NCBI RefSeq assembly: GCF_019599295.1
Contig: NZ_JAIEWN010000030.1
Location: 1 to 38,210 of the forward strand
DNA: 38,210 bases
Source: Oscillochloris sp. ZM17-4
Lineage (GTDB): Bacteria; Chloroflexota; Chloroflexia; Chloroflexales; Chloroflexaceae
Reading direction: 5' to 3'
Notes under the pieces: generated by a model
Database searches by the model: none
The model's input: the letters and a program-made list of their open reading frames with translations, nothing else
Told to the model about the DNA's origin: nothing
Position numbers and translations under genes: made by a program
Shown here: in pieces, positions 27,335-37,759 of the stretch
Layout: each line of letters starts with the position of its first letter
How positions within the stretch are numbered: position 1 is the stretch's first letter

Positions 27335-28327
<993 letters not shown>

Positions 28328-31419: not shown

Positions 31420-33252
<1,833 letters not shown>

Positions 33253-33380: not shown

Positions 33381-34370
33381 TTAGATCTTCTGCCTGGGGT
33401 CGAGCGCGTCGCGCAGGCCGTCGCCGATATAGTTGATCGCCACCGAGGCCAGCAGGATGGGCAGGCTCGGGATGAGCGGCATCCAGGGGTACTGAAACAT
33501 ATAGCTCTGGGCGTAGCCGAGCATATTGCCCCAGGTCGGCGTCGGGTCGGTGATGCCGAAGCCGAGGAAGCTCAGCGCCGACTCGGCCACCAGGGTGCCG
33601 TTCACGCCGAGGGTGAAGTCCACGATCATCGGCGGCAGCGAGTTGGGGAAGATGTGGCGGGCCAGCAGGCGCAGGTTGGACGCGCCCAGCGCCCGCGCCG
33701 AGTCGATGTAGACATTCTCGCGCACCGAGAGCACCATCCCGCGCATCAGCCGGCAGGTGCCCGTCCAGCCGAAGAGGGCCAGGATGAGGTTGACCATGAG
33801 CACCAGCTTGGCCTCGCGCTCGCTCACCGCGAAGAGGAAGGAGATCGTCTTCGTGACGATGGCCGGGAAAGGGATGTTCTTCTCGTTGCCGACGAAGATC
33901 GAGACCACGATCAGCAGCAGCGAGAGGGTGGGGAAGGTGGCGACGATCTCCAGGGCGCGGCTGATGATCGTGTCGACCCAGCCGCCGAAGAAGCCGGCCA
34001 GCAGGCCCAGGACGATCCCGATCGTCGAGGAGATCAGGGTCGCGAAGACGGCGGTGCCCAGCGAGACGCGCGAGGCGAAGAGCAGGCGGGTCGCCGAGTC
34101 GCGGCCGAGGTGGTCGGTGCCGAGGATGTGCAGGCCGCCATTGACATCGGTGCTGAGCGGGGTGAGGAAGCGGGCCTTCAGGTTCGGCTCATCGCGCGGA
34201 TAGGGCGCGATCACCGGAGCCAGGGCCGAGAGCAGCAGCATGCTCAGCAGCAGGCCGAGGCTAAACATCGCCAGGCGGTGCTTGCGGAAGCGCCGCAGCA
34301 CGATCGAGAGCTGGCTCTCGGGCTCCGTCGTCTTCGGCTCGTCGACCGGGACAGCCGTGGTGGTGGCCAT
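33381..34370 (-). CDS. Peptide ABC transporter permease, DppC/OppC type
   Basis: A 329-residue permease from the ATG at 34370 (MATTTAVPVDEPK), eight bases after GGAG; the frame open to 34418 translates a repeat. First helix about 36-58, periplasmic HILGTDHLGRDSATRLLFASRVSLG, five-helix core, EAA loop DSARALGASNLRLLARHIFPNSLP, and the ending INYIGDGLRDALDPRQ are typical of DppC. It pairs with the permease encoded at 34456-35649 in the upstream transporter operon. Confidence 0.94.
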   Translation of the reverse strand: MATTTAVPVDEPKTTEPESQLSIVLRRFRKHRLAMFSLGLLLSMLLLSALAPVIAPYPRDEPNLKARFLTPLSTDVNGGLHILGTDHLGRDSATRLLFASRVSLGTAVFATLISSTIGIVLGLLAGFFGGWVDTIISRALEIVATFPTLSLLLIVVSIFVGNEKNIPFPAIVTKTISFLFAVSEREAKLVLMVNLILALFGWTGTCRLMRGMVLSVRENVYIDSARALGASNLRLLARHIFPNSLPPMIVDFTLGVNGTLVAESALSFLGFGITDPTPTWGNMLGYAQSYMFQYPWMPLIPSLPILLASVAINYIGDGLRDALDPRQKI

Positions 34371-34395
34371 GAGTGTTTCTCCGTAGGGATGCCCC

Positions 34396-34455
34396 GGGTG
34401 CCCACAAGGGGTGCCCACAAGGGGTGCCCTTGTGGGCGCCCTTGTGGGCGCCCAC
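34396..34455. repeat. Inverted pair of 12-13-bp repeats (GGGTGCCCACAA / TTGTGGGCGCCC)
   Basis: GGGTGCCCACAA occurs twice (34396-34407, 34409-34420) and is faced by two CTTGTGGGCGCC units (34429-34440, 34441-34452). It abuts the TAG stop of the next permease gene. A related GGGGCGCCCCTTGTGGGCGCCC stretch follows coaE at 26152-26173. Confidence 0.8.
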
Positions 34456-35649
34456 CTAGCCCAGCCGGATGCGCGGATCGACGATCGTGTAGAGAATATC
34501 GGTGATCAGGATGCCGATCAGCAGCAGCACCACATTGATCAGCAGCAGGGCGTTGGCGACATTGTAGTCGCTGCGGCCGAGGGCGTCGATGTAGAGCCGG
34601 CCGAGGCCCGGCCAGTTGAAGACCGTCTCGGTGATCAGGGCGCCGCCGAAGAGCGTGGCCAGCACGCCGGCCAGCAGGGTGATGAAGGGGATGAGCGAGT
34701 TGCGCAGGGCGTGCTTGAGCACCACGGCGCTCTCCTTAACCCCCTTGGCCCGCGCGGTGCGCACATAGTCCTGGCTCAGCACCTCGAGCATGCTGCCGCG
34801 CACAAAGCGGCTCCAGCCGGCGATGCTGATGAAGGTCAGCACGCCGCAGGGCATCAGGAAGCGCAGGAAGCGGTCGAAGAACGAGCCGGCCTCGATGGTG
34901 CCGAGCAGCGGGATGGCATAGTCGCGGATGCCGACCGCGTCGCCCGAGGGCAGGTAGGGCAGCCCGGCCTGCTTGGCCAGCACCGAGAAGATCAGGATGG
35001 CGAAGATGCCGAAGACGAAGCTGGGCAGCGACGAGCCGACGAAGGCGATCGTCGTCATGGTGTAGTCGAAGCGCGAGTACTGCTTGACCGCCGAGTAGAC
35101 CCCGATCGGCACGGCGATCACCAGGGCCAGCAGGGTCGAGCCGCCCATCAGGTAGAGCGTGTAGGGCAGGCGGGTGCCGATCAGGTCGATCACCGGGCGG
35201 TCGCGCAGGATCACCTGCGAGACGCCGAAGTCGAGGAAGAAGACGCCGCGGCTGCTCTTGCGGCCCTCAAGGTCGGCCAGGGTCACGGGCTGATCGCAGC
35301 CCTCCTCGACGATCTCGGTGCGGCCGTCGGGGTAGCGCAGGCGCACCTGGCCGGGGATGGCGCAGCCGACCGTCCAGTCGGCGCCGATCGAGCCGAGGAT
35401 CGGGCCGGTGGGCCAGCCGATCAGCCAGCGCGAGAAGCGCACCGGCGCGTAGATATCGAGCTCGAAGCGCTGCTTGACGCGCAGAATATCGTCCTGGTTG
35501 ATCCGGTTCACGCCGCCGTTCTGGCGCTCGCCGAGCAACTGGTCGATCGGCCCGCCGGGCGAGATGTAGAGCAATGTGTAGGAGCAGATCGCGGCCACGA
35601 TCGTCACGAGAAACATCTGGAGTAATCTACGGACTAAAAATGCAGCCAT
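34456..35649 (-). CDS. Peptide ABC transporter permease, DppB/OppB type, with enlarged periplasmic domain
   Basis: A 397-residue permease, about 60-80 residues longer than usual. The N-terminal helix (LVRRLLQMFLVTIVAAICSYTLLYISPGGP) and the C-terminal core (DLIGTRLPYTLYL, EAA loop VRTARAKGVKESAVVLKHALRNSLIP, VFNWPGLGRLYIDALG, ILITDILYTIVDPRI) are canonical. The extra length lies in the first periplasmic loop (about 70-150), which contains IGADWTVGCAIPGQVRLRYPDGRTEIVEEGCDQ with two cysteines that could form a disulfide. Upstream on the same strand is the permuted binding protein. Confidence 0.93.
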   Translation of the reverse strand: MAAFLVRRLLQMFLVTIVAAICSYTLLYISPGGPIDQLLGERQNGGVNRINQDDILRVKQRFELDIYAPVRFSRWLIGWPTGPILGSIGADWTVGCAIPGQVRLRYPDGRTEIVEEGCDQPVTLADLEGRKSSRGVFFLDFGVSQVILRDRPVIDLIGTRLPYTLYLMGGSTLLALVIAVPIGVYSAVKQYSRFDYTMTTIAFVGSSLPSFVFGIFAILIFSVLAKQAGLPYLPSGDAVGIRDYAIPLLGTIEAGSFFDRFLRFLMPCGVLTFISIAGWSRFVRGSMLEVLSQDYVRTARAKGVKESAVVLKHALRNSLIPFITLLAGVLATLFGGALITETVFNWPGLGRLYIDALGRSDYNVANALLLINVVLLLIGILITDILYTIVDPRIRLG

Positions 35650-35663
35650 AGGCTTCTCGCTTT

Positions 35664-35797
35664 AGACAGGGGACAGCGCACAGGGGGCAGGGGACAGGCA
35701 AACCAATAGTGGACAGCGATGCGCGATCCTTCAGCTATGCCCTGGTCCTGTGTCCTGTCCCCTGTCCCCTGTCCCCTGTCCCCTGTCCCCTTGTTTA
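35664..35797. repeat. Inverted heptanucleotide arrays (GGACAGG / CTGTCCC)
   Basis: Left: AGACAGG, GGACAGC, GCACAGG, GGGCAGG, GGACAGG (about 35664-35698). Right: five or more CTGTCCC units (35754-35790), ending CTTGTTTAC. The left edge CTTTAGACAGG resembles the CTTTAGGCAAGG edge at 9652. No gene lies between the arms. Confidence 0.88.
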
Positions 35798-37759
35798 CTT
35801 CACGAACAGGTTCATGTCGATGTGCTCCCAGGTCGGGCTGGCGATGGTGTAGGCCTGCACGTCGCCCTTAGCGGCGGCGTCCAGCACCGTCTGCACCTCA
35901 GCGCCGGCGCCGAGGGTCTCGGTGCCCAGGGCATCAAGCTCGCCGGTGAGCAGCTGGGCCACGGCCTGGTTGGTGTCGGCGATGAACTTGATCACGATCT
36001 TCTTGACCGCCGGCTCGCCCTTGTAGTAGTTCGGGTTGGCGGTGAAGGTCATGCTCTGGCCCTTGTCCCAGCTCTCCAGGATGTAGGGGCCGTCGCTCAT
36101 CGGCTTCTCGGCGATCTCAGGCAGGGTGCTCCACTCCTTGGCCGGCACATCGGCCAGCGTGCGGCCGTCGCTCAGCACCTGGTGGGCCGGGTAGGCCCCG
36201 AAGCCCGCGCCGGCGAAGTAGGTCGGCCACTGCACGCCGGGGTGGAAGGTGACGGTGTAGGAGGTGTCGCTGGTCACGTCGAACGTGGCCACCGACTCGC
36301 AGTAGGTCAGCGAGACATTGCCGGACTCGGGGTCGCAGGTGATCTTGTGGGCCAGCTCGTAGTCGGCCTTGACCAGCGGCTTGCCGTCCTCCCACTTCAG
36401 GCCATCGATGAAGGTGTCGGTCACGGTCAGCTGCTTCATGGTCAGCGTACCGCTGTCGTAGGTGACGGTCTCGCCGGTGGAGTCCACAACCTCGACGCCC
36501 TTGGCCAGGGCCACCGCCTCGCCGGCGGTGTTCCAGACCATGTCGCCCTCCTTGACCTCGATGTCCTCATTCTTGGCCGCGCCGCTCTCGATCGTCGAGA
36601 GGGCCTTGAGCCCCTTGGCCTGGTAGTCGTAGCTGAAGGAGGTGCTGGCCGGCACGCCGAGCAGGTAGGCGGCGGTGCGCTGCACGGCGGCGCTCTCGAC
36701 CACGCCCCAGAGGCTGGCCGGCTCCTGGGTGAAGCCCAGCACCAGAGTGTCGCCGTCGGTCACCGTCCACTCATCGGCGTTGGCCGTGTAGTAGTCGGTC
36801 GGGTCAGGCTTGAAGCCCTCGAAGCGGTTGCTGGCGGCGGCGGCCTCGGTGCGGTTGAACAGCGGCAGGCTCACCATATCCTTGGTGAACTCGGCCTGCA
36901 CGATGCCGTACTGCTTGATCCGCTCGTCGCGGTTGAGCGTGTTGTTGGCGGCGACGATCGCCTTGCTGGCGGCGTCGTTGCACCAGCCCATGTAGTTCTG
37001 GCCCTCCCAGTTGTTCGAGGGCAGCGGGATCTGGTTGCAGGAGTAGAGCGTCTGGCCGCCGGGGTCGGCCTGGCCCACCCAGGCGAAGGCGCCCAGCTCG
37101 AAGTCGCGGCGCTGCAGGCCGGTGCTGCTGCCGAACCACCAGGAGCCGGGGGCGTAGGTCGGGATGACCTGGATGCCGCAGGCGGACATCTGCTGGATGA
37201 AGACGGCCGACCATGTCTGGCGGAACTGGGCGTTGGTGGTGGTGAAGCTGAGAGACAGCACATCGCCGGCGTCGTTGGCCCGCCCGCCGTTGCCGTCGTC
37301 CTTCCAGCCGGCCTCCTCAAGCAGCGCCTTGCCCTTCTCCACATCGAAGGGGTAGGTGGTGATGCCCGTGGTGGCCGCGGCCCAGTGGGCCTTCGGCAGG
37401 AATGTGTCCATCAGCAGGCCCTGCTGCTGCTCCTCGTTGAGGAAGGGGTAGACCGAGGCGATCATCTCAGGGCGGTTGGAGCAGTAGGCGATCGCCTGGC
37501 GCACCCTCAGGTCGCCCAGGATGGGGTTCGGGGTAGTGAAGGCCTCATTGGCGGCCGGGGCGGCCGGCTCAGCCGGGGCGGCCGTCTGCTCGACAACAAC
37601 GGTCTCTTTCACCACCTCGGGCGCGGATGTCTGCACCACAACCACGGTCTCGCGGATGGGCTCCTGGGCGGCGGGCGTGCCGCCGCAGGCGGCCAGGGCG
37701 GGGATCATCAGGCCCAACAGCATGAGCCCAGCGATGGAGCGCTTGGAGAACGTACTCAT
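35795..37759 (-). CDS. Peptide-binding lipoprotein of ABC transporter family 5, circularly permuted
   Basis: A 654-residue lipoprotein: signal peptide with lipobox LAAC (Cys25), Thr/Pro/Ala-rich tether (28-72), then binding domains. The order of conserved blocks is inverted relative to DppA/OppA. DLRVRQAIAYCSNRPEMIASVY, found near residue 300 in DppA, is here at 83-104, followed by YPFDVEKGKALLEEAGW and the DppA C-terminal blocks to EGFKPDP (about 320). Only then comes the usual N-terminal start LVLGFTQEPASL (339-350), with SDGPYILESW and NYYKGEPAVKKIVIKFIADT (about 575-595) after it. The chain stops at EHIDMNLF, the strand that normally leads into the DVRVRQA block. It should deliver peptides or similar ligands to the permeases encoded downstream. 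Strong AAGGAGGA site. Confidence 0.9.
   Translation of the reverse strand: MSTFSKRSIAGLMLLGLMIPALAACGGTPAAQEPIRETVVVVQTSAPEVVKETVVVEQTAAPAEPAAPAANEAFTTPNPILGDLRVRQAIAYCSNRPEMIASVYPFLNEEQQQGLLMDTFLPKAHWAAATTGITTYPFDVEKGKALLEEAGWKDDGNGGRANDAGDVLSLSFTTTNAQFRQTWSAVFIQQMSACGIQVIPTYAPGSWWFGSSTGLQRRDFELGAFAWVGQADPGGQTLYSCNQIPLPSNNWEGQNYMGWCNDAASKAIVAANNTLNRDERIKQYGIVQAEFTKDMVSLPLFNRTEAAAASNRFEGFKPDPTDYYTANADEWTVTDGDTLVLGFTQEPASLWGVVESAAVQRTAAYLLGVPASTSFSYDYQAKGLKALSTIESGAAKNEDIEVKEGDMVWNTAGEAVALAKGVEVVDSTGETVTYDSGTLTMKQLTVTDTFIDGLKWEDGKPLVKADYELAHKITCDPESGNVSLTYCESVATFDVTSDTSYTVTFHPGVQWPTYFAGAGFGAYPAHQVLSDGRTLADVPAKEWSTLPEIAEKPMSDGPYILESWDKGQSMTFTANPNYYKGEPAVKKIVIKFIADTNQAVAQLLTGELDALGTETLGAGAEVQTVLDAAAKGDVQAYTIASPTWEHIDMNLFVK

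Follow-up and report, generated by a model that had tools for sequence, protein, structure and literature searches.

Circular permutation of a putative family 5 substrate-binding lipoprotein heading a Dpp-type operon in Chloroflexota

Near the end of the window, the whole stretch of 38,210 nucleotides that was analysed, lies an open frame of 654 amino acids (35795 to 37759, minus strand) that resembles the family 5 substrate-binding proteins (SBPs) of ABC importers. Does it encode a circularly permuted SBP, and if so, how did the permutation arise and what would it change? The preliminary description had placed the conserved blocks of the second half of the family before those of the first, and the Pfam profile SBP_bac_5 (PF00496, 368 positions) agreed. 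The protein scored 154 bits against a cut-off of 32.4, in two stretches of swapped order: the first, at 37040 to 37543 (residues ~73 to 240), corresponds to profile positions 205 to 359, and the second, residues 447 to 650, to positions 20 to 207 (19 to 207 was also obtained). The halves did not align in the canonical N-to-C order of SBP_bac_5. Phmmer comparisons with the PDB sequences 2d5w and 1xoc showed the same swap. Both signature blocks were also found where they had been reported: DLRVRQA, the DxRVRQA block said to sit near residue 300 in DppA, starts at residue 83, its counterpart in DppA beginning at position 277 of the mature protein (precursor position 305), and LVLGFTQEP is at residue 339. 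No NCBIfam subfamily could be assigned, the best one being Opp4A at 131.5 bits against a cut-off of 650.

The gene was divided into five parts, all on the minus strand. The signal peptide with its lipobox (residues 1 to 25; 37685 to 37759) was read from the sequence, and the LAAC at residues 22 to 25 marks the product as a lipoprotein. It is followed by a tether (residues 26 to 75; 37535 to 37684) and by the canonical C-terminal half, which comes first in this chain (residues 76 to 332; 36764 to 37534). A 5-residue linker joins the old C terminus to the old N terminus (residues 333 to 337; 36749 to 36763), and the canonical N-terminal half comes second (residues 338 to 654; 35798 to 36748), so that the protein ends with WEHIDMNLFVK. 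Among 65 distinct permuted open reading frames (ORFs), this linker measures 5 to 6 residues, and the tail behind the N-terminal half is 0 to 2 residues long except in L063, L064, L067 and L069, the last two being incomplete frames. A simple pattern detected a lipobox in 59 of these 65 ORFs, and two of the six misses (L056 and L070) start at a contig edge. In 17 canonical relatives, the C-terminal half comes straight after the N-terminal half (spacing of the profile ends, -4 to 27 residues), and another 2 to 7 residues complete the chain. Judged from these lengths and spacings, the permutation is almost lossless, in keeping with the earlier statement that nothing large is missing, and the two matched portions of the profile are complementary.

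We predicted the structure with AlphaFold2 from 62 permuted sequences and obtained a model of mean pLDDT 87 and pTM 0.80. Residues 1 to 71, which comprise the signal peptide and most of the tether, form the only stretch with pLDDT below 50. Whole-model Foldseek TM scores were low (0.21 to 0.31 by query length among the best 50 matches listed), as is to be expected of a permuted chain given to a sequential aligner, and the halves were hence judged apart. A second structural look at the Foldseek matches placed model residues 76 to 334 on the C-terminal portions of family 5 proteins of known structure. The first half superimposed on residues 273 to 520 of AppA (1xoc; Z 24.9, rmsd 2.9, 243 residues aligned), and model residues 77 to 321 on residues 272 to 496 of DppA (1dpp; Z 23.4, rmsd 1.9, 205 aligned). 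Folded alone, the second half reached pLDDT 90, with its final 13 residues below 50, and aligned from the N terminus of AppA (Z 21.6), 2d5w (Z 21.4) and DppA (Z 19.5); Z ranged from 18.1 to 21.6 among the best 50 matches listed. Without the low-confidence stretch, the alignments of the ten rows listed end at chain residues 283 to 360, and many of those in which it was kept reach ~480 because the loose tail was aligned too. Among the matches listed, 1xoc led the ranking with either half, and 2d5w took second place with the N-terminal half. The proposed check by structure prediction thus gave separate matches of the halves to complementary parts of DppA and AppA. Compared separately rather than as one superposition, the two halves are supported by the model as together making up one predicted family 5 fold.

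To what extent the permuted order is shared was addressed by two surveys. A scan of genome contigs with six 8-residue patterns from one query, which distant or independent permutations could escape, returned 68 loci. Both halves were swapped within one frame in 65 of them; the other three are a second-half fragment (L071) and two normal-order proteins (L075 and L076). In a 62-row alignment, the permuted proteins are 46 to 78% identical to that of the window. The survey of Chloroflexota proposed at the outset covered 400 genomes, with three candidates scored per genome, and found the permuted form in 43, the window's own included. It is full length in one frame in 41 of these and spread over two frames in G238 and G262, perhaps through frameshifts. 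In G262, the gene is split near the old-terminus linker (L137 1551-3750 / L138 1303-3343 for G262 and G238). Five single-contig genomes (G118, G134, G166, G005 and G337) carry the permuted gene in one frame. Within the order of the window genome, represented by 40 sampled genomes, the permuted form occurs in 22/23 genomes of family f1 and 8/9 of f3, compared with 0/7 of f2 and 0/1 of f4. The sole permuted match of the pattern scan outside Chloroflexota, L065, is titled Gracilibacteria, is 70% identical to the window protein and is presumably a case of mis-binning. Canonical-order copies do exist in relatives, as the preliminary description had envisaged, but these are paralogues distinct from the permuted gene, carried by the same genome or by a related one. 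Profile, predicted structure and survey all back a circular permutation, and the clade-wide swap of order is genuine. Chance, or a normal order of the halves, was rejected as an explanation, as complementary, full-length and swapped halves are present in dozens of species.

Three other observations concern individual copies. Chloroflexus has permuted paralogues (L063, 7755-10220; L064, 5603-8185; L089/L135) with a 154-residue C-terminal extension that ends in YLPIINR or YLPLLHR and sits at the terminus made by the permutation; a neighbouring permease was not found there. At L082 (4431-5675, minus strand), a 415-residue frame corresponds to a permuted relative in the C-terminal half alone (53% identity), after which come WEHIDFNL and an additional tail; it is perhaps a remnant with the N-terminal half deleted, and the adjoining ORF resembles, by eye, a transposase. 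In the window genome, a 100-N scaffold gap starts right after the last base of the window (L136 1212-1311), ~450 bp upstream of the start of the permuted gene.

We then compared permuted and canonical proteins. Permuted proteins formed one clade (SH-aLRT 100) in both the N-half and the C-half tree (31 permuted and 26 canonical rows), and the pairwise identities of the two halves were correlated (r 0.86 over 465 pairs). Residues R180, R218, W227, P233, G253, N255, D458, G459, D466, P553 and G557 are conserved in 14/14 canonical and 29 to 31 of 31 permuted rows. In canonical relatives, C93 tends to co-vary with C194 and C241 with C260, and the cysteine pair 475/487 is nearly confined to permuted rows, one canonical row of 14 (L086) having it. 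The most frequent residue at position 230 is Q (42 of 62 rows), followed by E (16), D (3) and S (1). For R355 and D408, the ligand residues of DppA (R383 and D436 in the precursor), no aligned Arg was found in the permuted alignment, in a region partly aligned by eye. The ligand of the putative binding protein may not be a dipeptide, because this pair is not conserved. Peptide specificity, to which the name 'peptide-binding' had committed the protein, is not supported, the DppA ligand residues lacking clear equivalents.

The genomic context is that of an importer. The permuted SBP gene heads a conserved SBP-DppB-DppC-DppD-DppF operon. Of 66 permuted loci, 56 have DppB as the next gene downstream, and in 45 of these the retrieved stretch also contained DppC, DppD and DppF. 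With its pair of permeases and pair of ATPases, this is an operon of the type I Dpp/Opp importer kind; in the window it is present but rearranged. There, the SBP gene is followed on the minus strand by a DppB-type permease of 397 residues (34456 to 35649), a DppC-type permease (33381 to 34418) and a DppD-type ATPase that breaks off at residue ~315 and continues, in the same frame, into the C-terminal half of a different SBP (31420 to 33252); a second DppB, DppC and DppD come next, before a DppF-type ATPase (27335 to 28327). The latter, 89% identical to the DppF of L010 and the only copy that close to it, is the orthologue of the operon's DppF.

The DppD-SBP fusion, listed together with L120 1456-2520, was seen in the window genome alone, and the matching N-terminal half of the fused SBP is on contig C110, adjoining a 100-N gap. 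Among 30 further genomes from the family, three had a match to its C-terminal half: G401 within an intact SBP of normal order, G375 in a 585-residue frame and G408 in two short frames. The join may be a misassembly or a true rearrangement; the anomaly leaves the permuted gene untouched.

Families f2 and f4, which belong to the order of the window genome, and some further families have this operon with an SBP of normal order at its head, which we call A-type. In f2 and f4, the operon reads A-DppB-DppC-DppD-DppF-B, where the B-type is a second normal-order SBP behind DppF. Operons between two normal-order SBP genes, the A-type 5′ of DppB and the B-type past DppF, were observed at L104, L124-L126, L128 and L132-L134; possibly, two binding proteins feed one importer there. 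The A-type genes L105 and L127, and also L115, have no such operon alongside, and at L035 and L073 a normal-order SBP gene directly precedes the permuted one.

The order and completeness of the halves, the confident predicted fold, the conservation, the single clade and the dedicated operon have been observed. They are best explained, in our judgment with high probability, by a single circular permutation, in an ancestor within Chloroflexota, of the SBP of a DppBCDF-type (type I) importer. New termini would have opened at the strand-helix turn that starts the C-terminal half (DppA residue ~272), and the old termini would have been joined by the short linker, so that the C-terminal half now comes behind the signal peptide and lipid tether.

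What this would do to anchoring depends on the lobes concerned. By the domain limits of DppA, we take residue 272 to be part of lobe II, a short way past the hinge, and both old termini presumably lie in lobe I. On these limits, the tether appears to have left lobe I and to be attached now to lobe II near the hinge, because the new N terminus maps to DppA residue 272. The permuted SBP would still be a two-lobed clamp that hands its ligand to DppBC, with the anchor now pulling on lobe II near the hinge and not on lobe I. Tether lengths are alike (median 46 residues in permuted versus 35.5 in canonical proteins) and give no direct sign of a tether-driven change.

The permease next to the SBP also differs. 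The DppB of the window has an extra segment in the periplasmic loop between TM1 and TM2 (approximately 35269 to 35412, minus strand; limits set by eye from an alignment), with cysteines C96 and C118. After rows alike over their last 120 residues had been dropped as duplicates, which removed the DppB of G118 (L078/L118), the loop could be measured in 51 of 52 distinct DppBs from permuted operons; the remaining row, L074, is without the motif used for the measurement. It comprises 98 to 114 residues with two cysteines in 50 rows, and 207 residues with four in L025. In A-type operons, it comprises 58 to 68 residues without cysteine in 10 of 11 cases, the exception being L106, with 105 residues and two differently placed cysteines. 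The window and the measured permuted-operon DppBs thus have ~45 extra loop residues with a conserved cysteine pair. Going by the topology of DppB, we place its scoop motif in this same loop. As far as the account in PMC12136057 goes, E. coli DppB inserts this motif, a helix-loop-helix on the periplasmic side, into the DppA cleft. An enlarged, probably disulfide-bridged loop beside the scoop motif could join an adapted docking surface.

Has the permutation then mattered for docking? One tentative reading, which we consider rather unlikely, is that the shift of the anchor to lobe II by the hinge was fixed together with a disulfide-stapled DppB loop, so that an entire branch of type I importers acquired a distinct geometry of docking and release, with fusion of the first and the last SBP gene of one operon as a possible origin. 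A somewhat better prospect, still short of an even chance, is that the permutation was neutral and drifted to fixation, with anchoring and docking unchanged and the DppB loop unrelated. The retained fold and common conserved residues and the similar tethers fit with such neutrality. In a DppB tree, 24 permuted-operon DppBs formed one clade (support 99) next to 4 from normal-order operons, and loop growth and permutation are a single co-occurrence, not a statistical association, because both fall on the same branch of the tree; this confounding, too, suits neutrality. However, the long loop with its cysteine pair is present in all 51 distinct permuted-operon rows measured compared with 1 of 11 A-type operons, and in the sampled order the permuted form occupies the slot that the A-type holds in other families, both of which argue for more than drift.

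As for the route, the permutation likely came about by duplication, fusion and truncation of SBP genes within one operon. It is possible, though we doubt it, that two paralogues were fused, the C-terminal half coming from the B-type SBP past DppF and the N-terminal half from the A-type heading the operon, and that the product then became the sole SBP. The layout of the f2 and f4 operons suits such a fusion. C-half profile scores of some B-type proteins equal the best A-type ones and N-half scores favour the A-type, but long branches of the B-type N-halves could explain these scores. The C-half tree puts the permuted clade nearer the B+E grouping and weakly rejects an A+B clade (p-AU 0.036), and A+B is the best grouping in the N-half tree, which also speaks for fusion. 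Against this, neither the grouping of permuted with A-type proteins (p-AU 0.53 for the N-half, 0.10 for the C-half) nor that with B-type proteins (0.53 and 0.24) was rejected for either half. A smaller test likewise left the parent of each half undecided. On sequence grounds, a fusion of a B-type C-terminal half with an A-type N-terminal half would be as admissible as a permutation of a single gene, because the AU tests reject neither parent.

We also considered a role outside transport, for example in sensing, or at the cell surface as a lipoprotein whose gene just happens to adjoin that of a permease. The ten permuted loci without DppB include four that stop at a contig edge (L014, L022, L050 and L067), and at the six others (L027, L028, L029, L063, L064 and L072) a neighbouring permease was not found though the contig continues; two of these, L063 and L064, bear the C-terminal extension of Chloroflexus. 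With a permease directly downstream in the large majority of loci, such a role is improbable. An assembly error or local rearrangement bringing two half genes together, conceivable given the other suspicious join in the window (DppD with an SBP C-terminal half at ~32310, the matching N-terminal half beside an N-gap on another contig), is practically dismissed by the survey of relatives, since full-length permuted genes occur in dozens of species at the identities given above, close relatives and the five single-contig genomes among them.

A single permutation of the importer SBP thus stays the preferred reading, and it provides a clean and old natural example within a large class of binding proteins. 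Related families have homologues of normal order at the equivalent place in the operon. Such a natural permuted/normal pair allows tests of how chain order and anchor position affect closure, docking and transport. The permuted SBP is also a ready-made scaffold for biosensor design. A warning for annotation is that matches to half a profile can mask permuted proteins under an ordinary binding-protein name.

Known systems offer both likenesses and differences. The operon resembles DppABCDF of E. coli, which combines a family 5 SBP with DppB, DppC, DppD and DppF and in which the DppB scoop motif touches both DppA lobes, as far as PMC12136057 describes it. DppA has the canonical order and, in Gram-negative bacteria, is soluble according to the same account, in which R383 and D436 (R355 and D408 mature) bind the dipeptide; the window SBP is without this pair. 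E. coli DppB is without ~60 residues before TM2 (window DppB residue 134 corresponds to profile position 71). The closest solved relatives by sequence, 2d5w of Thermus and AppA of Bacillus subtilis (1xoc), have their halves in normal order. In the literature searched, whose reach excluded most subscription journals, no permuted family 5 protein was found, and the part of PMC9732360 examined for OpuAC holds nothing on permuted binding proteins. As far as that literature goes, a clade-wide permuted family 5 variant is new, while permuted SBPs of other clusters are known. Glycine-betaine-binding proteins are also permuted within the periplasmic binding protein superfamily, but they belong to another family and were found via structure comparison, with no lineage-wide operon context in section 11 of PMC2395249. 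Another known case, described in PMC4990184, is TpMglB-2 (Tp0684) of Treponema pallidum, a glucose-binding lipoprotein of cluster B that is naturally circularly permuted. Like the Chloroflexota protein, it is a lipid-tethered ABC binding protein with a natural permutation found across a set of bacteria; it keeps ligand binding and closure, and its authors suggest that membrane anchoring may lie behind the permutation. For the window protein, Pfam gives family 5 only and the listed fold matches are of the family 5 kind by their titles; TpMglB-2 was compared by description. It differs in belonging to cluster B/Type I and in having only the first strands of the N-lobe at its C terminus, with an extra fourth hinge crossing, whereas in the Chloroflexota lipoprotein about half of a family 5 protein has moved.
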